The translations under genes were made by a program, and so were the position numbers. Source: Aerococcaceae bacterium (GTDB lineage Bacteria > Bacillota > Bacilli > Lactobacillales > Aerococcaceae). From it: 35,775 nucleotides of DNA. The notes beneath the pieces are model-generated. The model was not told the origin of the DNA. It searched no databases and saw only the letters and a list, made by a program, of their open reading frames with translations. This document shows, in pieces, positions 2,009 through 10,755 of the stretch. The DNA is taken from NCBI GenBank assembly GCA_030525795.1, contig JAUNEB010000012.1, positions 1 through 35,775 of the forward strand, written 5' to 3'. Numbering within the stretch: the first letter of the stretch is position 1; every line of letters begins with the position of its first letter.

Positions 2009-2819
2009 CTTTTTGTACCCCCTTTGTTTTACGGTCCCGCGTCAAAAACATAACCACAATCATCATCAACGTCAATACGACCCCAATCGTTGAGCCCATT
2101 CCCCAGTTCTGTGTCACTAAAAAATGTTGCTCCACAGCCGTACCAAGCGTAATCACACGGTTTCCGCCAATCAAACGCGTCAACATGAACAGCGATAACG
2201 ACGGAATAAATACCGCTTGAATTCCGCTACGCACACCGCGCAATGACATTGGAAACACAACGCGACGCAACGTCGTCCAAGGAGACGCGCCCAAATCTTG
2301 ACTCGCTTCCAATAAAGAATTCGGAATTTCATTGATTGAGTTAAAAATCGGCATCAACATAAACGGTAACTCAATGTACCCTGCCACTACCAAAAATGCT
2401 ACATCCGTAAACAATAACTGCTTCGGCGCAATCCCGAAAAATGACAAAAATTGATTCACGGTACCCGTTTGGCTCAGCAAGCCAATAAACGCGTACGCTT
2501 TTAACAACAAGTTAATCCATGTCGGCAAAATAATGAGCAACAACCACAAATTTTTGTGCTTAGTGCGGCTCAACAAATACGCCATCGGATAACTCAATAC
2601 AAACGTCACCAACGTCACTAGCACCGCATACAACAGCGAGCTGCCCATCATCGTCAAATAATTGCGCGACGTAAAAAAGGTTTGATAGTTCGATACCGTA
2701 AACTGATTATCTAACCCCAAAAACGATTGCGACACCAACAAAATAAGCGGCGCAATCACAAACAACACGAGCCATAACACGTACGGAATGGCATATACAT
2801 AATTTTTTTGACGTTCCAA
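2001..2819 (-). CDS. potB: Polyamine ABC transporter permease PotB
   Basis: First permease subunit (272 aa) of the PotABCD importer. Its N-terminal helix (VLWLVLFVIAPLILLVSQSF) and the EAA-type loop ASQDLGASPWTTLRRVVFP mark the BPD_transp_1 fold. The gene lies 11 bases after potA and overlaps potC by 8 bases. The start is supported by an AGGAGGCGA ribosome site a few bases upstream on the minus strand. No irregularities seen. Confidence 0.92.
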   Translation of the reverse strand: MERQKNYVYAIPYVLWLVLFVIAPLILLVSQSFLGLDNQFTVSNYQTFFTSRNYLTMMGSSLLYAVLVTLVTFVLSYPMAYLLSRTKHKNLWLLLIILPTWINLLLKAYAFIGLLSQTGTVNQFLSFFGIAPKQLLFTDVAFLVVAGYIELPFMLMPIFNSINEIPNSLLEASQDLGASPWTTLRRVVFPMSLRGVRSGIQAVFIPSLSLFMLTRLIGGNRVITLGTAVEQHFLVTQNWGMGSTIGVVLTLMMIVVMFLTRDRKTKGVQKDD

Positions 2820-2830
2820 TCGTTCGCCTC

Positions 2831-3919
2831 CTAGTCTTCGTATTGCTCTAAACGCGCATCAAAATCAGCTTCCGATTCGTTGAATCGCATGACGTGAATA
2901 TCTTCTGCTTCAAATTTCAAGCCGACTTTGGCGCCAGGCGTCACCTTGTCTGTCGTATGAATCATCCATTCATTGCCATCTTCATCGTACGCAATTACTT
3001 CGTTGAAAACGCCGCGGAACAACATGGTATCAACTGTCGCTACTAATTTACCTTGCTCTGGCGTTGTAATGTCAATATCTTCAGGACGAATCACCACTTC
3101 TACCGCTTCACCGCTTGGAATTCCGGCGTCTTCACAGTCAAACGTTTTGCCGACGAATTCGACGCGATAGTCTTCAATCATTTTGGCATTGATAATGTTA
3201 CTTTCACCAATAAAATCTGCAACGTAACGGTTAATCGGTTCATCATAAATATCCACAGGCGTTCCCGATTGGACAATCTCGCCGTTGTTCATGACAAAAA
3301 TCCAGTCTGACATCGCCAATGCTTCTTCTTGGTCGTGCGTCACAAAGACGAACGTAATCCCTAAACGTTGCTGCAATTCACGCAATTCGTACTGCATATC
3401 CGTACGCAATTTCAAATCCAATGCAGACAACGGCTCGTCCAGCAGCAACACTTCTGGCTCATTGACAAGCGCGCGCGCAATCGCTACACGTTGGCGTTGT
3501 CCACCTGACATTTCCGAAATGGCGCGGTTTTCGTAGCCGCTTAATTGTACCATTTTGAGGGCAGAGGTGACTTTTTCTTGGATGGTTGCTTTGTCGACAT
3601 TTTTGACGGACAAGCCGAACGCGATATTGTCATACACATTCATATGCGGAAATAGCGCGTAATCTTGGAAAACGGTGTTGACTTTGCGTTTGTTGGCTGG
3701 CACCTCATTGACACGCTCGCCGTCCAAATAGACATCGCCGCCACTCGCTGAACTAAAGCCTGCAATAATGCGCAAAATCGTTGTTTTGCCGCAACCTGAC
3801 GGCCCTAATAATGTATAAAATTTTCCTTTTTCTAATTCCATGTCCACGGACTTCAACACTTGCTGTTCTCCGTAAGATTTTGTGACATTTTTCAAAACGA
3901 CACTGTACTGTTCTGTCAT
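2831..3919 (-). CDS. potA: Polyamine ABC transporter ATPase PotA
   Basis: ATP-hydrolysing subunit (362 aa) that powers polyamine import. Walker A GPSGCGKT is at residues 39-46, the signature MSGGQ at 137-141, Walker B LLLDEP at 158-163, and the switch His in VTHD near 195. A C-terminal TOBE-like domain follows (about 240-350), which is the PotA/CysA layout. The reading frame is open further upstream. I chose the start at 3919 because AAAGGAG lies 9 bases before this ATG and the protein then begins [12 protein letters not shown] as in the family. It is the first gene of potABCD and has its own promoter just upstream, so the restriction-modification island next door should not silence it. Confidence 0.93.
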
Positions 3920-3956
3920 CTCCTCGCGCTCCTTTATTGATGTTCTACAAAATTTA

Positions 3957-3985
3957 ATTATAACAGTTCCAACGCCTTGAGTAAA
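3957..3985 (-). promoter_or_regulatory. Promoter of potABCD
   Basis: Minus strand TTTACT (3980-3985), 17-base spacer, TATAAT (3957-3962, perfect -10). It lies about 40 bases before the potA start and inside the left border of the neighbouring island, so the promoter was left intact by the insertion. Confidence 0.7.
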
Positions 3986-3997
3986 TGAGTTCCACGC

Positions 3998-4013
3998 AAA
4001 AAGCATTCAGACA
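3998..4013. repeat. Left 16 bp direct repeat bordering the RM island
   Basis: The 16 bases AAAAAGCATTCAGACA are identical to 9705-9720. At the right side they form the T run and 3' stem arm of the complete lplA terminator. Here only this half is present, with no partner arm. The simplest reading is a duplication of the insertion target made when the 5.7 kb island entered the terminator. Confidence 0.65.
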
Positions 4014-4306
4014 ATGCGGCGTTACAATTGATGTGAGACCCAGAGTACAAAAAAAGAAGATTCCTGATATGATAAGGGTCCCACCACTTATCATATCAGG
4101 AATCTTTTCATAACTAATATATCACAAAATCTTCACTATTTACCACATATACTTTTAACAGCTACCACGCTGTTAAAACCTACCGAAATAGTGCTACCAT
4201 AGCCTGCCTATGGAAACCTTAGACTGAAAATCGCTTAGCAAAATCTAGCAAATGAATCTCTTCAAACTCACCTCTGGGGTCTCACATCAATGACAAAGGT
4301 GCATTG
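4012..4306. repeat. Left copy of the flanking non-coding element
   Basis: Non-coding element of about 280-295 bp whose diverged second copy lies at 9451-9708 in the same orientation. Shared blocks include GCGTTACAATTGA(T/C)GTGAGACC at the left end, a TACAAAAAAAGA block, CTACCACGC and CCTACCG in the middle, and GGTCTCACATCA at the right end. The ends are imperfect inverted repeats (ATTGATGTGAGACC inward from both sides), and CAATGC/GCATTG at 4012-4017 and 4301-4306 may extend them. Inside are a 20 bp terminator hairpin (4057-4106), a 10 bp hairpin (4153-4178) and a 6 bp hairpin (4197-4213). It has no ORF of note. It resembles a MITE or the non-coding end of a mobile element. I do not recognise the family. 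Confidence 0.7.
4049..4106 (-). terminator. Strong terminator downstream of res
   Basis: Perfect 20 bp stem (4057-4076 paired with 4087-4106) with a 10-base loop GGTCCCACCA. On the minus strand it is followed by C and then seven T residues. It lies inside the left flanking element, about 230 bases past the res stop codon, and should end the mod-res transcript and insulate potA. Confidence 0.85.
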
Positions 4307-4336
4307 TTGCAAAAAAAAGTTTTAGAGACAGGTATT

Positions 4337-7279
4337 TCATTCTAATTCTTGGATCTTCTGAAGCTCTCGATAAACATCGTTAGCTTCCGTTGCAACAAGA
4401 TATTGAATGTCCAAAGCTGAAAGTTCAGAGAAAAATTTCTCTTGAATTTGAATAACTTCTTTGTCTCCTTGACGCATGTCTTGAGCTTTTCCTTCCACTA
4501 GCAGATGCAGTTTCCTGCCCGCTTTACTCTCCACGACAAAGATAAAATCAGGCGTTGTGGTGCCACCAGTATAGCGTGGCACTTGAATGGCTGAGCGAGG
4601 TAATTTCCCAAAAATTTTGACTTGGGGTTCGTAGCGATGCAAAAGTAAATCACGCTCAGGTTCTTTACTGTCATAATAAAGCGGTGGATTATCATAGAGA
4701 TACTTTTCAGAATCCGTCGTATGGTGCAGTGACTGCCTACCCACTAAAGCAGCTGACAGGCTCGTGATAAATTCGTCTCGTTCACCATCAAAAATAGAGG
4801 TTCTACCATAAAAATCCAGATTTTGATAATGGTAGGCCTGGCTATACAGTTCCTCAAAACCTGTCTTGAAGGCTCGACTTAGATGTTTCAAACTCGATTC
4901 ACTGAGGTAGTTGCCATCTTGCAATTCTTTCAAGACAGCAACCAAAGGTGGATGAATCTGTTGAACACGTAAGCCTGTTCGGTTGGACAATTCTCTTAAA
5001 AAGCGGCCATAGGGTATCCCTGCCACCACCTTCTCCAAAAAGGCTGTCTGAGGAGCTGATAATGTCACTCCCGCCTCTGAGGTCAAGAGTGAAGACTTCG
5101 TCTCCCGATACTGGTCAATCTGATAATGCCTTTTATCACCAATAATCTGACAAGCAAGCTCTGTTACAGCAGGTTTAGGCTCAAAAATCAAGAGACGACG
5201 TTTGGAGAACTCTCTCCACAGCCCTTTTAGTTCTGCCCATTTGTCGAGTCGCAGGTGTACCCGTTTTTTACCTGCCTCTATCTGTTGATTATCCGTAATC
5301 ACTCCCGCTGGCAAGGTCAATTCAGGATACAAGTCCAATAGCCACTGATATCCTGATTGGGTTTTGCCAGCAATCGTCACCTCCTGTTTGAACTCATTTT
5401 TACGATTAATGATACCGCACTGGTCCAATTCGTTCAACAAACTTTCATCATCAAAACGGGCATCCGTTTTCTGACGGTAGGCCACTAGCCAGCCAATCAT
5501 TTCCTCCGTTAATCGGTCTTGATTCAACTCGATTGGATTGTCTTTATTCACTTCGCCAACCAATTGCTGAGCGAAGTCTTTTTCATCATAACCAATCAGA
5601 AAGGCAAGGCGGCTCTCCCATTCGTCTTGGGTCACACGATGGCCTGTTTCGTCGAAAGGTAAACGTAACCCCCGCCCGACTTCCTGAATTTTGCTAATTT
5701 CACTCCCTGACGTCCGTAGCTTGGCAATGACAAAGACATTGGGATTGTCCCAGCCCTCTCGCAAGGTCCACTTGGAAAAGAGGAAACGTCTGGGTAGCCA
5801 ATTCCCTTGATCATCCTTGAAGGCTAATAAGCGTTCCTTGTTTCGCAAGATGTCATCAACCTGACGCTGGATTGCCTCATCTCCACTGCCAATATCTTCT
5901 CCAAAATAACCCGCATGAACATCTTGACCAGTACCAGCCTGTAAACTTTTCTGGGTAGCCAAAAGAAAATCAACATATTCCTGCTCACGATACCCTGGTT
6001 TCTCTTGAAGTTCACTTAATAAGCTCTGCAATTTTTCCCTCAGCAAACGCTCAAAGGTTAGCTTCAGCCAACCCTCATCCTCACGATAGGAAGGAATACT
6101 ATCAATAAAGAAGAGGGAAAGGGTCTTGATACGTGGCGCCTTATTGGGACGTGAAAAATTCTGCCACTCTTTTTCAAAGTGCTTGTCAATGGCATCTTTT
6201 ATCACCAACTCTTGGTAGCTGTTGCGAAAAACTGCGGGCGTCAACCACATACCCTTTTCCAGAAGCAAACCACTACTGAGTTCCTTGCCACCTACATAGG
6301 TCACATCCCCTTCAAAATCCCTATCAACATCTGCCAGGTTATCACCGACTGCCAACTCGACCTGTTCCTTACTACCTTTCTTCTTCAAGACCAGCCTTTT
6401 GGCCGTGACGCTTTCCACCTGCCAGAGATTTCGTGCCTCTTGCTCAGATAGATTGGGGTAATAGATGTCAATTCCTTTCACTAAACCTTGTTGAAAACTC
6501 TGAACAGCGGTTAAGTTATGCTGGGGAACCTGACGATAATAATCTTTCTTGGTTACTTTCAGTTTTCCTTTGCCCTCCGTTACTTCTGGAAAGGTTGCTC
6601 CAAATCGAATAATCATCTGAGGACAAAGCGCTTCAATAGCCTTATAGTTGTTACCCTCCCTTGGAAAACGATGGGGCTCGTCAATAATGACAATCGGTCT
6701 GATTTTCTTCAAAGCAAACACAGGACTGGTCTCACTCATCAAGAGTGTCTGATCGAAGTCATCCTTGGTCATGTTGCTGGACGTCAACATACCAGCATTG
6801 ACCAGCAACACCTGAATGGTATTGCTAGTCTGCCTGCTCCCTTCAATAAAATTGGTCAGGTGGGCTGGAAAGTTTTTCCGACCTGACTTGGCCTTAAAAT
6901 CCCCTGCATTGAGCACATTGAGATCAATTCTGGTATTCTCATAAAACTGAGAAAAATGTTGTTGTGTCGACAGGTTCTCGATAAAATTTTTGGTTCCAAT
7001 TTTGATGGCAGGGCTGGGAACAACCAGGATAAACTTGAACAAGCCAAAACGTTTGTGGAGTTCGTAAATAGCTCTGGTATAGACGTAGGTTTTCCCTGTT
7101 CCTGTTTCCATCTTGATGTCAATGTTGGCAGTATCCAGACCACGATGCTTAATCAAGGGATTGGCAAAAACATAGTCCCTGTCAGGGTCTGTACTGGTCT
7201 CATCTAGCCCTCGAAAACTAGCTATCAAAGCCTCCAAGGCAACTTTCTGGTGGTCCAGTTCTTCTAGTAAGAGTTTCAT
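4337..7279 (-). CDS. res: Type III restriction enzyme, Res subunit
   Basis: Restriction subunit (980 aa, normal for the family) of a Type III restriction-modification system. It acts in complex with Mod, translocates or slides on DNA using ATP, and cuts a little away from unmethylated sites. The superfamily 2 helicase core is clear: Walker A METGTGKT at residues 57-64, DEPH box at 199-202, and the late motif VGRGLRLP near 545. The C-terminal nuclease has the PD-(D/E)xK layout with Asp911 in TPDF and Glu929/Lys931 in VEGK. All key residues are present, so the enzyme is probably active. The gene starts 9 bases after mod with AGGAGG five bases before ATG, so the two are one operon. Confidence 0.93.
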   Translation of the reverse strand: MKLLLEELDHQKVALEALIASFRGLDETSTDPDRDYVFANPLIKHRGLDTANIDIKMETGTGKTYVYTRAIYELHKRFGLFKFILVVPSPAIKIGTKNFIENLSTQQHFSQFYENTRIDLNVLNAGDFKAKSGRKNFPAHLTNFIEGSRQTSNTIQVLLVNAGMLTSSNMTKDDFDQTLLMSETSPVFALKKIRPIVIIDEPHRFPREGNNYKAIEALCPQMIIRFGATFPEVTEGKGKLKVTKKDYYRQVPQHNLTAVQSFQQGLVKGIDIYYPNLSEQEARNLWQVESVTAKRLVLKKKGSKEQVELAVGDNLADVDRDFEGDVTYVGGKELSSGLLLEKGMWLTPAVFRNSYQELVIKDAIDKHFEKEWQNFSRPNKAPRIKTLSLFFIDSIPSYREDEGWLKLTFERLLREKLQSLLSELQEKPGYREQEYVDFLLATQKSLQAGTGQDVHAGYFGEDIGSGDEAIQRQVDDILRNKERLLAFKDDQGNWLPRRFLFSKWTLREGWDNPNVFVIAKLRTSGSEISKIQEVGRGLRLPFDETGHRVTQDEWESRLAFLIGYDEKDFAQQLVGEVNKDNPIELNQDRLTEEMIGWLVAYRQKTDARFDDESLLNELDQCGIINRKNEFKQEVTIAGKTQSGYQWLLDLYPELTLPAGVITDNQQIEAGKKRVHLRLDKWAELKGLWREFSKRRLLIFEPKPAVTELACQIIGDKRHYQIDQYRETKSSLLTSEAGVTLSAPQTAFLEKVVAGIPYGRFLRELSNRTGLRVQQIHPPLVAVLKELQDGNYLSESSLKHLSRAFKTGFEELYSQAYHYQNLDFYGRTSIFDGERDEFITSLSAALVGRQSLHHTTDSEKYLYDNPPLYYDSKEPERDLLLHRYEPQVKIFGKLPRSAIQVPRYTGGTTTPDFIFVVESKAGRKLHLLVEGKAQDMRQGDKEVIQIQEKFFSELSALDIQYLVATEANDVYRELQKIQELE

Positions 7280-7288
7280 GGCAACCTC

Positions 7289-9265
7289 CTAGTAACGTTT
7301 CAGCAACTCTGGCTTGCTATCTAGCTGGTTGAGAGCCAACTCCAACTCACGCAAACTTTCCAACTCGAAGGAGTAAGCATAGATAACAAGGGTTTGGAGC
7401 GTCAGCTCATGGGTCCCCAAGCAATTGACTAACGCTTTGGTCTGCTCAGAGGTCCATCCAGAGGAAATCAGGTAGAGTCTGCTCCTGTCAAGATAAGTTG
7501 CCTGGTAACCAGCAAGATTCAGCTGCTCCGTCTGGGCATCAAAACCATAACCATCTGCCAAGAGCCAGGTGGTCAGAATGGTCTCCTCACCACGAGCAGA
7601 ACCAGCATAGCCTAAACCAGTCGCAGAAAAAGGTGTCACCATGTCTGAAAAATCCACCTCTTCCAAGAGGCTCAACTGCTGGCTGTTCGACAAATCAATA
7701 GCATCGAGGTCATCCAAGGTTTGCTGGGTCGGGCTGACCACCCGATAGTGCTTGAAACCACCGTCAAAATCCGTCAAGTCTTTTTCAGATTGAATCTTTT
7801 GGCTGGCAAGTTCAATCCGCTTACGGGAAATCTCGTCGATGGAACGGAAACCTGCCTGATACGCCGCTTCAGAACCTTTTCTTGCCACTTCAGTTCCGTC
7901 AGAATTGGTCGTAAAGGTCGGTTCAGGCAACTGCACCATGATGTAACAACGCTTGCCGCCATCTTCTGCGTTGAGCTGCATGACCGCATCCGCTGTCGTT
8001 GCCGAACCAGCGAAAAAGTCGAGGATTATAGCAGATTTGTTAGAGGATATTGTATATCTTAACAAATCAAATATCATATTGTCTGGTTTTGGATTTGTAA
8101 AAATTTTTACGCCATCAAAAAGTCCGTATAATTTTTCAGTAGTCGCTTTTGTTGGATAATAACCTAATGTTGAAACCAATTGTTGCTTAGTAGCATACTC
8201 ATGAAAAAATTCTTTCCTAATAGGATAACGGTTCGTCGTTTCAGGAAAAATAATTCTACCTTCAGATATCCAATTATCTAATTTTTCTTGTCCATACGGG
8301 GTTTCAAATTCAAAAATATTTCCTGTTTCAGGGTCAACTAACTTTCTTGTAGGTAGCCCTTGTCCCAATCTTTGGAGGTACTGTCTTTTCCAAGGTCCTC
8401 TTGGATCGTTATCTGGATTCGAAAATCCATTATCCACATCTCTTTCCATTCCTTCAAAAGAGAATAAATTTATATTCTTAGCATAAACAAGAATATTTTC
8501 GTAGTTGTTTACAACCATTGTTTGAGTAGTCATACCTTGGGCTGCTTTCTTAGTTTGCCAAGTAAAATCAATTACAAACTGCCCCTCTCCAAAAATCTCG
8601 TCCATGAGGAGTTTGAGGTTGGCTTGTTCATTGTCATCAATGGAGACAAACATCACGCCAAAATCTTTGAGAAGCCGCTTGGCCAGCCAAAGCCGAGGGT
8701 ACATAAAGGTCAGCCAAGCCGAATGGTTGGCACGACCTTGAATGGACTTGAGACGTTTGAGTTCCTCTTCACTAAGACCAAACATGGCCTGCAAGCTCTC
8801 ATCACTGTACTCGAACTTGTCAGGATAGACAAAACCGTCACTACCTGTATTGTAGGGCGGGTCAATATAGATCACATCCACCGCGTTTTGATAGCTCGCC
8901 TGTAAATGGCGGAGCACCTCCAGATTATCCCCAGTCAAAAAGAGGTTGTGGCTGTCTCGGTTTTCAGGTTTCGCATTATGCTCTTTGTCTGGCAGAATCA
9001 CCGTTGTCGGTCGTTCCCCTGCTTGTTTTTTAGCATAATCCTTGCCGATAAAATCCAGCTTGTAGCCACTAGTAAGTTCCTGAATGTTCCGCTCCTGCAA
9101 CATGCTGGTAAACTTTTGGAGATCAAAACCTCCTGCTTCAAGCAACTCACCGGCTTCATCATACTTATCTACCGTGAAAAATTCTGGCAACTTGGAACGT
9201 AATTCCTCTAAAAAGGCTGTATTGGGAGAGACAGATTGGTTCAATTTTCGATTGTCCTGCAACAT
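7289..9265 (-). CDS. mod: Type III DNA methyltransferase, Mod subunit
   Basis: Site-recognising N6-adenine methyltransferase (658 aa). Catalytic motif IV DPPYNTGSDGF begins at residue 135, and the SAM-binding motif FAGSAT follows at about 417-422. This order is that of the beta class used by Type III Mod proteins. The stretch between them (about 230-415) is the target recognition domain. Its DNA (about 8020-8580) is far more AT-rich than the rest: hand counts give 15 of 60 G+C in 8041-8100 and 14 of 60 in 8461-8520, against 32 of 60 in 7921-7980 and 32 of 60 in 8641-8700. This suggests that the domain was swapped in. GGGAGGTGA precedes the ATG, which directly follows an in-frame TAG. The target site cannot be predicted. 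Confidence 0.93.
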   Translation of the reverse strand: MLQDNRKLNQSVSPNTAFLEELRSKLPEFFTVDKYDEAGELLEAGGFDLQKFTSMLQERNIQELTSGYKLDFIGKDYAKKQAGERPTTVILPDKEHNAKPENRDSHNLFLTGDNLEVLRHLQASYQNAVDVIYIDPPYNTGSDGFVYPDKFEYSDESLQAMFGLSEEELKRLKSIQGRANHSAWLTFMYPRLWLAKRLLKDFGVMFVSIDDNEQANLKLLMDEIFGEGQFVIDFTWQTKKAAQGMTTQTMVVNNYENILVYAKNINLFSFEGMERDVDNGFSNPDNDPRGPWKRQYLQRLGQGLPTRKLVDPETGNIFEFETPYGQEKLDNWISEGRIIFPETTNRYPIRKEFFHEYATKQQLVSTLGYYPTKATTEKLYGLFDGVKIFTNPKPDNMIFDLLRYTISSNKSAIILDFFAGSATTADAVMQLNAEDGGKRCYIMVQLPEPTFTTNSDGTEVARKGSEAAYQAGFRSIDEISRKRIELASQKIQSEKDLTDFDGGFKHYRVVSPTQQTLDDLDAIDLSNSQQLSLLEEVDFSDMVTPFSATGLGYAGSARGEETILTTWLLADGYGFDAQTEQLNLAGYQATYLDRSRLYLISSGWTSEQTKALVNCLGTHELTLQTLVIYAYSFELESLRELELALNQLDSKPELLKRY

Positions 9266-9288
9266 CTAGCTCACCTCCCTACAAGCAC

Positions 9289-9314
9289 AAAAAGCCTGCT
9301 TTGAGCAAACAGGC
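9289..9314 (-). terminator. Terminator-like hairpin in the mod leader (possible attenuator)
   Basis: On the minus strand GCCTGTTT pairs with AAGCAGGC (8 bp including one G-U pair) around a 5-base loop, followed by TTTTT. It lies between the short leader ORF and mod, about 23 bases before the mod start. It looks like an intrinsic terminator but sits inside the mRNA leader, where it could reduce transcription into mod-res unless ribosomes disrupt it. Confidence 0.6.
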
Positions 9315-9341
9315 GCAAGAGTTGATTGTCGGGAACTTTGA

Positions 9342-9386
9342 TTAATATATATATATATATATATCGATAACTTTTGATAGTGACAT
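9342..9386 (-). CDS. Short leader ORF upstream of mod (14 codons at present repeat length)
   Basis: ATG at 9384-9386 with a strong AGGAGG eight bases upstream, encoding MSLSKVIDIYIYIY and then TAA at 9342-9344. Codons 8-14 are made by the (AT)10 run. Worked out by hand, (AT)11 would open the frame to a TAG that directly abuts the mod ATG, and (AT)9 would open another frame ending at a TGA five bases before it. Only the present frame (10, or 10 plus or minus 3) stops before the hairpin at 9289-9314. It could be a regulatory leader peptide. It could also be a relic of a small hydrophobic (holin-like) toxin gene, which I cannot exclude. No in-frame fusion to Mod is possible because of the TAG. 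Confidence 0.45.
   Translation of the reverse strand: MSLSKVIDIYIYIY
9345..9364. repeat. (AT)10 dinucleotide repeat in the mod leader
   Basis: Twenty bases of perfect alternating AT. It lies about 80 bases before mod, downstream of the mod promoter and inside the leader ORF. Dinucleotide runs of this length are prone to slippage, and repeat-driven on/off switching is well known for Type III mod genes in other bacteria, though there the repeat is usually within mod itself. Confidence 0.9.
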
Positions 9387-9416
9387 AACTAGCCACCTCC
9401 TCATTGTGATAAAAAA

Positions 9417-9445
9417 AGTATAACACAAAATCAACCGCTTGTTAA
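9417..9445 (-). promoter_or_regulatory. Promoter of the mod-res operon
   Basis: Minus strand TTAACA (9440-9445), 17-base spacer, TATACT (9417-9422). It lies just inside the right flanking element and would give a leader of about 145 bases carrying the short ORF, the AT run and the hairpin. Confidence 0.7.
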
Positions 9446-9450
9446 GTACA

Positions 9451-9708
9451 GCGTTACAATTGACGTGAGACCCCCTACAAAAAAAGATACCTGATAGGAA
9501 AAGCCTGCCACCACTCACTACAAAACCTCAGTTATTTTCTACACACGCTTGTCACTACCACGCTTTTAAACCTACCGGAATAGCGCTCCAATCATCTTCC
9601 TATGCAACCTCGCTATCAGAAAAGCTTTACTATGGGCTAGCTCCTAGTAAAGACTAACAAACAACGATCTTCAAAATAACCTTTTAGGTCTCACATCATT
9701 GACAAAAA
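9451..9708. repeat. Right copy of the flanking non-coding element
   Basis: Diverged direct copy (about 258 bp) of the element at 4012-4306. The ends GCGTTACAATTGACGTGAGACC (two bases longer than the next block) and GGTCTCACATCATTGAC are preserved, as are the TACAAAAAAAGA block, ACTACCACGC and AACCTACCGGAATAGCGCT in the middle. The big terminator hairpin of the left copy is lost here. It carries a different 8 bp hairpin (CTTTACTA at 9625-9632 with TAGTAAAG at 9645-9652). No ORF. Confidence 0.7.
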
Positions 9709-9741
9709 AGCATTCAGACAGGCTCATCTGTCCAAATGCTT
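9704..9741 (-). terminator. Terminator after lplA
   Basis: On the minus strand a 14 bp stem (9728-9741 with 9708-9721, two T-G pairs in the middle) and a 6-base loop are followed by a T run. It lies 6 bases after the lplA stop codon and ends the four-gene operon. Confidence 0.85.
9705..9720. repeat. Right 16 bp direct repeat bordering the RM island
   Basis: Identical to 3998-4013. Here it is part of the complete lplA terminator, so this is probably the original target and the left one the duplicate. It directly follows the end of the right flanking element. Confidence 0.65.
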
Positions 9742-9747
9742 CAATGA

Positions 9748-10755
9748 TTATCCGATTAACATTTCGGTTAGTTCTTCTAGCGTCACACGGCCAAAATATT
9801 TTTGAATGTCAATGGTTGACAACGCGTCTTGCAATGCTTGGCGCTCATACTTGACGCCTACAAATTGTTGTTCAACATCGGCAATGTCTCCTAATCCAAA
9901 AAAGTCGCCGTAAATTTTCACTGCAGAAATGACGCCTTTTTCGACATTAAAACGGAAATCCACAAACCCGAACGGGAATTTTTGACTTTTTGTGATTTCA
10001 AAAGCAGGTGATTCGCCGTAATTCCATTCCCAATTGTTAAAGCGTTCGGCGTTGATGGCGTCGACTTTTGCCCAGTCTTCGTCAGTCAACACAAGTTCTT
10101 TAACTTGGTCACGGCTTTCCACACCAAAAATCTCAAGCAAAATCAAGTCGCGAAACTGTTCCGTTGTCAGCCCTTGATATTCAGGTGACACGAACGGCTT
10201 AATATTAGTGACGCGGCTGCGAACGGACTTAATGCCTTTGGATTCAATTTTTTCTTGGCGCGGTTTCAATGCATTCGTGACTTCATCTAAATCCGCATCA
10301 AATAAAATAGTTCCGTGCGCGGTCATACGTCCATTTTTGGCGTACATGGCGTTGCCTGAAAACTTTTTGCCATCAATCAACAAGTCGTTACGGCCTTGTA
10401 ATTCCGCGCCTGTTGCGCCCATTTTGTGCAAGGCGTCAATAACAGGCTTGGTAAAACTTGCAAAGTCGCGGAACGAACCGTCATCATCTTTAATGAAACA
10501 AAATGAGAAATTACCTCGATCGTGGTACACCGCACCGCCACCTGACATACGGCGCACAACGCGAATATTGTTGGCTTCGACATACGGTTGATTGATTTCT
10601 TCAATCGTGTTTTGGTTGCGGCCGATAATAATCGCAGGATCGTTAATGTAAAACAACAAAATCGGCTCGTCTACTAATTTATTTTCGACTAAATACGTTT
10701 CTAATGCAATATTACGGCTCGCGTCATAGCAATTGCCATTATTTACAAAGTACAT
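9748..10755 (-). CDS. lplA: Lipoate-protein ligase LplA/LplJ type
   Basis: Activates scavenged lipoate (or octanoate) with ATP and attaches it to lipoyl domains of 2-oxoacid dehydrogenases or GcvH (335 aa). The conserved RRMSGGGAVYHD block is at residues 68-79 and the catalytic lysine region DGKKFSGNAM at about 128-137 (Lys131). A C-terminal accessory domain (about 250-335) gives the long, bacterial single-chain form. It starts 6 bases after the hydrolase gene with AAAGGAT as ribosome site and is the last gene of the operon. The same hydrolase-ligase pair occurs in Bacillus subtilis (yhfI-lplJ). Confidence 0.93.
   Translation of the reverse strand: MYFVNNGNCYDASRNIALETYLVENKLVDEPILLFYINDPAIIIGRNQNTIEEINQPYVEANNIRVVRRMSGGGAVYHDRGNFSFCFIKDDDGSFRDFASFTKPVIDALHKMGATGAELQGRNDLLIDGKKFSGNAMYAKNGRMTAHGTILFDADLDEVTNALKPRQEKIESKGIKSVRSRVTNIKPFVSPEYQGLTTEQFRDLILLEIFGVESRDQVKELVLTDEDWAKVDAINAERFNNWEWNYGESPAFEITKSQKFPFGFVDFRFNVEKGVISAVKIYGDFFGLGDIADVEQQFVGVKYERQALQDALSTIDIQKYFGRVTLEELTEMLIG

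Follow-up and report, generated by a model that had tools for sequence, protein, structure and literature searches.

The closest described relative of the system considered here is the leader of the pil1 pilus locus of Streptococcus gallolyticus, in which a repeat within a short leader open reading frame (ORF) lies ahead of a transcription terminator (Danne et al., 2014; PMC3894217). According to the experiments reported there, deletion of the terminator locks the locus ON, with 11-fold more pilB transcript, removal of the leader start and ribosome-binding site gives low, homogeneous expression, and out-of-frame changes in the repeat, in either direction, turn expression ON. A mostly-low expression profile is seen in isolates whose leader ends 28 nt or more ahead of the terminator (PMC3894217). 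Phase variation of type III DNA methyltransferase (mod) genes has been described separately, as for ModS of Streptococcus suis, with GAGCA repeats (PMC6265453), and M.MmyCI of Mycoplasma, with AG repeats (PMC3498834). Here we consider a leader ahead of a type III mod gene in a 35,775-nt stretch of DNA from an Aerococcaceae bacterium (assembly GCA_030525795.1, contig JAUNEB010000012.1, positions 1 to 35,775 of the forward strand; hereafter the window). In the light of the pil1 precedent, this leader is read as an attenuator of the pil1 type, set before a type III restriction-modification operon and sequenced in its low phase, and we put the probability that it acts as a phase-variable transcription attenuator of mod and its neighbour res at roughly 0.78.

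All elements of the leader lie on the minus strand and are described here in the order in which they would be transcribed. A promoter-like site at 9417..9445, scoring 10/12 in a consensus scan, has a -35 element TTAACA (9445-9440), a spacer of 17 and a -10 element TATACT (9422-9417) after TG. It is followed by a near-perfect Shine-Dalgarno sequence, AGGAGGTGG (9393..9401; predicted to pair with the 16S rRNA tail at -16.3 kcal/mol), and by the leader ORF, which as sequenced runs from an ATG at 9386-9384 to a TAA at 9344-9342 and encodes 14 aa (MSLSKVIDIYIYIY; 9342..9386). The stop codon stands directly after an (AT)10 repeat inside the ORF (9345..9364), the proposed slippage site. Further downstream are a terminator-like hairpin (9294..9314; 8 pairs, a loop of 5 and a predicted fold of -10.7 kcal/mol), its T5 tail (9289..9293) and the Shine-Dalgarno sequence of mod, GGGAGGTGA (9271..9279; predicted pairing with the same tail, -16.7 kcal/mol). 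A TGA at 9271..9273, 5 nt ahead of the mod start, closes the leader ORF at 9 (or 12) units, and a TAG at 9266..9268, adjoining the mod ATG, closes it at 11 (or 8) units. Relative to the mod start codon the ORF ends at -76 nt with 10 units, at 0 with 11 and at -5 with 9; the 10-unit stop leaves a gap of 27 nt before the hairpin, and with 9 or 11 units the hairpin is traversed. Three features of a pil1-type leader can be read directly from this arrangement, namely a non-triplet simple repeat within a short ORF having its own ribosome site, a predicted intrinsic terminator (hairpin plus T5) between that ORF and mod, and a repeat phase that determines on which side of the terminator-like hairpin the ORF ends. 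The original prediction, made from the letters of the window, had placed the promoter, leader ORF, (AT)10 repeat, hairpin and mod at these positions and had worked out the frames for 9, 10 and 11 units, all of it correctly on re-reading. Rfam gave no family overlapping the leader, its five matches in the window all being tRNAs. As a separate observation, the start regions of the leader ORF and mod (GGAGGTGGCTAG and GGAGGTGAGCTAG; positions 9266-9278 and 9389-9400 of the window) are much alike, possibly as a result of local duplication.

From this anatomy we infer where transcription starts, that the tract slips in the sequenced strain, that the hairpin terminates and that methylation is affected. 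RNA polymerase would begin just downstream of 9417-9445 and transcribe the leader ORF with its strong ribosome site, and slippage in (AT)n would shift the frame of that ORF. With n = 10, ribosomes would halt ahead of the hairpin, which would then form and mostly stop transcription before mod-res, so that the form of the leader ORF found in the assembly is predicted to be the low or OFF phase. In the other two phases ribosomes would cross the hairpin and block the terminator, giving the ON state, and those ending beside the mod start may also aid mod translation by reinitiation. Such translational coupling is likely to contribute, because the through-frames end at the start codon. As the switch would act on the transcript, not on the Mod frame, Mod and Res would go on and off together.

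Taken one at a time, the elements of the window depart from chance to differing degrees. The AT tract is non-random, being the sole tract of (AT)9 or longer in the 1.30-Mb assembly (77.7% complete); about 4e-7 such 20-nt AT tracts would be expected from a first-order model with the window base frequencies, a model that understates their frequency since real slippage makes tracts commoner. When the 79-nt segment was shuffled 200 times with its dinucleotides preserved, a T-tailed hairpin of this stability arose once. Less favourable are the fold of the whole 147-nt leader, which was matched by 11 of 200 shuffles (z -1.83), a simple terminator scan of 1 kb, with 1 site found against 0.8 expected, and the promoter-like sites, which at 3 found against 2.1 expected are not above chance. 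The two open phases and the promoter match are insignificant alone, and the elements other than the tract draw their weight from recurrence in relatives.

This recurrence is seen among loci found by similarity to the window Mod or to the Mod of a second locus, L046, whose upstream DNA was then scanned. The scans cover the best matches, that is 30 loci from the 78 matching genomes among 395, 30 from the 94 matching among 398, and 11 of 781 matching plasmid records; a leader repeat was defined by a unit of at least 2 nt, so that homopolymers of 8-9 A or T ahead of certain other mods were not counted. Leader repeats stand ahead of the gene in five loci, the window (AT), L044 (GCACA), L046 (TCAC, with an assembly gap inside), L059 (AGCAACA x31) and L119 (ACTCA x11), of which L059 codes for a Mod-like methylase (534 aa) that lacks a type III C-terminal match. 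In the 150 nt upstream of the start, 5/5 of these loci have a T-tailed hairpin at -10 kcal/mol or better, as do 3/86 others (Fisher P 1.2e-6), and when the window is removed as the source of the hypothesis the hairpin is still present in 4/4 (P 1.4e-5). The comparison covers 91 loci for which 150 nt or more of upstream DNA was available; loci identical in this upstream DNA were merged, second-piece loci were excluded, and for 8 of the 86 controls the start taken and the expected start are over 60 nt apart. A query with the L059 methylase, which matched 12 of 59 genomes at E 1e-20, later added L172, L173 and L174, which share the layout and stand outside the Fisher test. A scan of genome contigs with Mod gave one distant locus, in Staphylococcus massiliensis. 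Other Mod relatives carry repeats within the gene (L004, GAACA x17; L048, AGAC x20; L052, G11; L058, G10), which suggests that phase variation has arisen several times, and in different ways, in this enzyme family. Repeats were also noted close to gene starts, AGCAC x7 at L175 and L178 and GAGCA x36 at L177.

Several of the leaders belong together. The L119 leader resembles those of three Ligilactobacillus salivarius megaplasmids, where it lies ahead of genes annotated as N-6 DNA methylase, and the resulting family is marked by a core between repeat and hairpin, GATTATGTAA..TTTGTCAAG, and by a peptide motif, DYV...FVK. An exact pattern for the core had no match in viral contigs, the L119 leader DNA had none in phages, and a tblastn search with the 35-aa leader peptide had none in plasmids or phages. 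As the exact-core and the plasmid and phage peptide searches came back empty, the family was traced and extended by DNA similarity and by a leader-peptide search of genomes; the latter matched 4 of 301 genomes, the fourth hit, L145, proving spurious. Searches of plasmids with the L059 and L152 leaders gave no match, or three already known records only. Members occur in L. salivarius plasmids and in other genomes of the same order, one of which has a leader 98% identical to that of a Ligilactobacillus plasmid, an identity that points to Lactobacillales as the order. The further family leaders have AACAC, ACTCA, ACAAT, AGAAC, TCAC or ACAGCCT as repeat unit, and at L173 an 8-nt unit x21 is joined to the family core. 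Loci found by leader homology are not independent of one another, and the L147 leader is the same as that of L146. The leaders of L139-L148 and L151-L158 possibly constitute an undescribed family of phase-variable leaders.

The genes behind these leaders belong to several types of restriction system. Type III Mods are the targets at L119 (both Pfam domains), L046 (full-length tblastn), L158 and L155 (methylase domain only, the gene being cut by the locus end) and L152 (14 residues only). At L139-L144 the targets are type IIG or other N6 methylases; at L153/L159 an EcoRI-type methylase is followed by a second ORF on the same strand, nuclease-like by eye; L157/L161 have type I HsdR, HsdM and HsdS, in pieces; and L151/L160 have a type II system that includes an Eco57I-like methylase as well as a helicase-like protein. 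At L146, of which L147 and L148 are the same locus, the target is one large protein (2615-5117; L. salivarius pMP118) of which the 834 available residues, taken from L146, have no Pfam, PADLOC or NCBIfam match. Its place behind a family repeat leader raises the possibility of a defence or restriction enzyme not yet described.

Frames and hairpins are taken as evidence that these leaders are translated and fold. At least one frame runs from the repeat to between -5 and +8 nt of the target start in all 20 tabulated loci, exactly one doing so in 18 and two in the window and L059, although such open-frame counts are insignificant locus by locus; with one through-frame each at L172, L173 and L174, all 23 leader loci reach the target start. 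Among the 17 family leaders compared, every one has a frame open to between -3 and +8 nt, and the through-frame peptide is conserved despite differing segment lengths, 16 of them carrying the FVK motif. A hairpin of -10 kcal/mol or better is present in 19/23 leader loci. Across eight family leaders, its 13 pairs are 97.1% paired, with two-sided changes in 9/13, and the covariation score is 0.714 against 0.318 (sd 0.050) after shuffling; slid versions of the hairpin drop to 37-54% paired, a comparison biased towards the true structure, which was read from one of the eight (L139). These eight were drawn from the 17 by dropping L140 and L142 as near copies of L139, L152, L153, L046 and L044 for their different stems, and L144, L146 and L148, which are without a hairpin.

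Variation in repeat number can be followed between relatives, at L119/L158 and at L146/L148. The near-identical leaders of L119 (11 units, short, OFF) and L158 (10 units, through, ON) come from two genomes of one genus, and the Mods behind them, two alleles, begin with the same residues and show 63% identity over the compared part. An ACAAT tract ahead of the same gene measures 101 nt in L. salivarius UCC118 and CECT 5713 and 86 nt in ZLp4b, an in-frame change. The leaders of L139 (21 units, short) and L140 (12 units, through) are 96.6% identical over 117 nt, whereas their methylases are about 30% identical over the methylase part, and because the leaders are so nearly the same and the methylases so different, an exchange of genes behind one leader is suggested. 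As sequenced, 5 of 17 assessable leaders are in a through phase (L140, L142, L144, L151 and L158) and 12, the window included, in a short one; L172 and L173 are likewise short. At L144 (1500-1590) the hairpin is missing, its left arm apparently lost, and the target there is predicted to be constantly on.

The gene behind the leader in the window, mod (7289..9265, minus strand), encodes a type III DNA methyltransferase of 658 aa (Pfam N6_N4_Mtase, 6.3e-32; T3RM_EcoP15I_C, 2.5e-27) and is followed on the same strand by res (4337..7279), which encodes a 980-aa type III restriction endonuclease (NCBIfam PRK15483.1, 1192.8 bits; Pfam ResIII and RE_endonuc) and presumably lies in one operon with it. 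A Mod with an N6_N4_Mtase and an EcoP15I-type C-terminal domain beside a Res with helicase and endonuclease parts identifies a type III restriction-modification system. From 9265 to 7289 mod is open independently of the repeat, and its product aligns from residue 1 with several relatives. The repeat lies outside the coding sequence, which sets this mod apart from those that vary through an in-gene repeat, and an N-terminal extension of Mod by the leader is ruled out by a stop codon between leader and mod in every phase. Beyond the leader lies lplA, which is kept in three other genomes of the genus of the window. These three have no Mod match at E 1e-20, one weak match being found elsewhere in G003, of the same genus (E 1.9e-12), and by blastn the DNA past lplA in same-genus genomes (about 7, 1.6 and 0.5 kb) has no match to mod-res. 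Because lplA is kept in these genomes without a Mod match or mod-res DNA, mod-res appears to have been inserted, perhaps together with its leader.

Several observations weigh against a phase-variable transcription attenuator at this locus. A search of 395 genomes of the order with the window leader DNA returned AT tracts or stretches of 24-25 nt and nothing else, and plasmids contained no DNA relative of it. Three words of the leader-family core are absent from the window leader and its through-frame peptides have no recognisable DYV...FVK motif; the window leader is unrelated to that family. Its hairpin is the weakest of the 19 scored as present, and no convincing hairpin exists at L144, L146, L147 and L148 (4/23). 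In some Bacillota RNA polymerase may run ahead of the ribosomes, and the coupling on which the switch depends would then be weaker. Two open phases at the window have a chance P of about 0.17, and the 10 AT units, known from a single genome of the species, could be an assembly error. These last points, together with an assembly that is single and incomplete, also speak for a chance arrangement or artefact, which we regard as barely credible when the tract is unique in its genome and the anatomy recurs elsewhere. That the tract works through the shape of DNA or RNA, as a cruciform or an AU hairpin in the leader, and not through frame would fit the self-folding of (AU)10 in the predicted leader RNA; it is highly improbable, the tract lying downstream of the promoter-like site and non-palindromic repeats (ACTCA, AACAC, TCAC and others) occupying the same place at other loci.

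The hairpin might instead be the ordinary terminator of lplA, with the leader ORF and AT tract incidental. It is the sole terminator-like site in a scan of 8900-9900, which spans the whole lplA-mod gap, and when the DNA past lplA was scanned in two genomes of the genus, no clear counterpart emerged that would speak either way. This reading was rejected as very unlikely, since the hairpin lies some 430 nt beyond the lplA stop, with promoter-like and strong ribosome sites between, and in an arrangement common to unrelated loci; the apparent insertion of mod-res, with which the hairpin may have arrived, beside an lplA that same-genus genomes keep also argues against it. A further possibility is translational coupling alone, the leader ORF passing ribosomes on to mod through termination and reinitiation in two of the phases, with transcription running on through the hairpin. 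Through-frames that end within -5 to +8 nt of the target start in 20/20 loci are indeed what coupled genes would have. Against this, the T-tailed hairpin, which coupling does not need, is tied to leader repeats and covaries, the mod of the window owns a strong Shine-Dalgarno sequence, and the pil1 hairpin is a proven terminator (PMC3894217), so that coupling as the whole explanation is unlikely. The preferred reading is then the one put forward by the original prediction, a translation-linked attenuator set by repeat slippage, which finds support in the pil1 genetics and in the same anatomy before other restriction-modification genes. At the window itself such an attenuator is what we infer; the idea is less new than had been supposed, because the pil1 precedent exists, and also more general.

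Leader attenuators set by repeat length probably serve the restriction-modification operons of lactic acid bacteria as a phase switch that is both general and portable, in which a leader with a conserved core has been placed before systems of types I, II, IIG and III, the repeat unit is freely replaced, and methylase and nuclease are silenced together at the transcript level. Units found swapped in this position are TCAC, ACTCA, AACAC, ACAAT, GCACA, AGAAC, a 7-mer and an 8-mer, with AT in the unrelated leader of the window. Silencing both enzymes at once would avoid the danger of losing the methylase alone and would explain how whole restriction-modification operons can be switched safely, given that loss of the methylase by itself could do harm. 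Phase-variable methylases can control whole gene sets and phage defence; if the proposal holds, surveys restricted to repeats inside methylase genes miss switches of this kind, and with leader attenuators as a second route, phase-variable systems of lactic acid bacteria may be annotated as constant. In the open-access literature, with subscription journals mostly outside its scope, no report was found of a pil1-type attenuator on restriction-modification genes. The novelty lies in the target, a restriction-modification operon, the mechanism being already known from pil1. In some S. suis strains GAGCA lies just upstream of a putative mod, without the 119-bp linker, a situation that the relevant text of PMC6265453 does not treat as phase-variable Type III; these loci could be leader switches of the window kind.

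Compared with known systems, the window stands nearest to pil1 and pil3 of S. gallolyticus, with which it shares a short ORF with its own ribosome site, an internal slippage-prone repeat and a downstream terminator hairpin (Danne et al., 2014; PMC3894217). As in pil1, one short phase ends well short of the hairpin, by 39 bp in UCN34 pil1 and by 27 nt in the window, and the longer phases reach it, and the distance in the window can be set beside the 28 nt or more of the mostly-low isolates. The repeat unit differs, however, being AT in the window and GCAGA in pil1, as does the target, a restriction-modification operon in place of pili; furthermore, two phases of the window end at or beside the target start codon. 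With the mod genes of phasevarions it has in common the type III enzyme class and a slippage switch, dinucleotide repeats (AG) also being known there (PMC3498834), but those repeats lie within the gene, whereas in the window no phase disrupts mod, and the repeat belongs to a separate leader ORF, a terminator-like hairpin standing between the two. Finally, as in the leader-peptide attenuators of trp (described in PMC3894217) or mef, translation of the leader would decide whether the terminator forms. There the input is amino acids or drugs, whereas in the window it would be a heritable repeat length.
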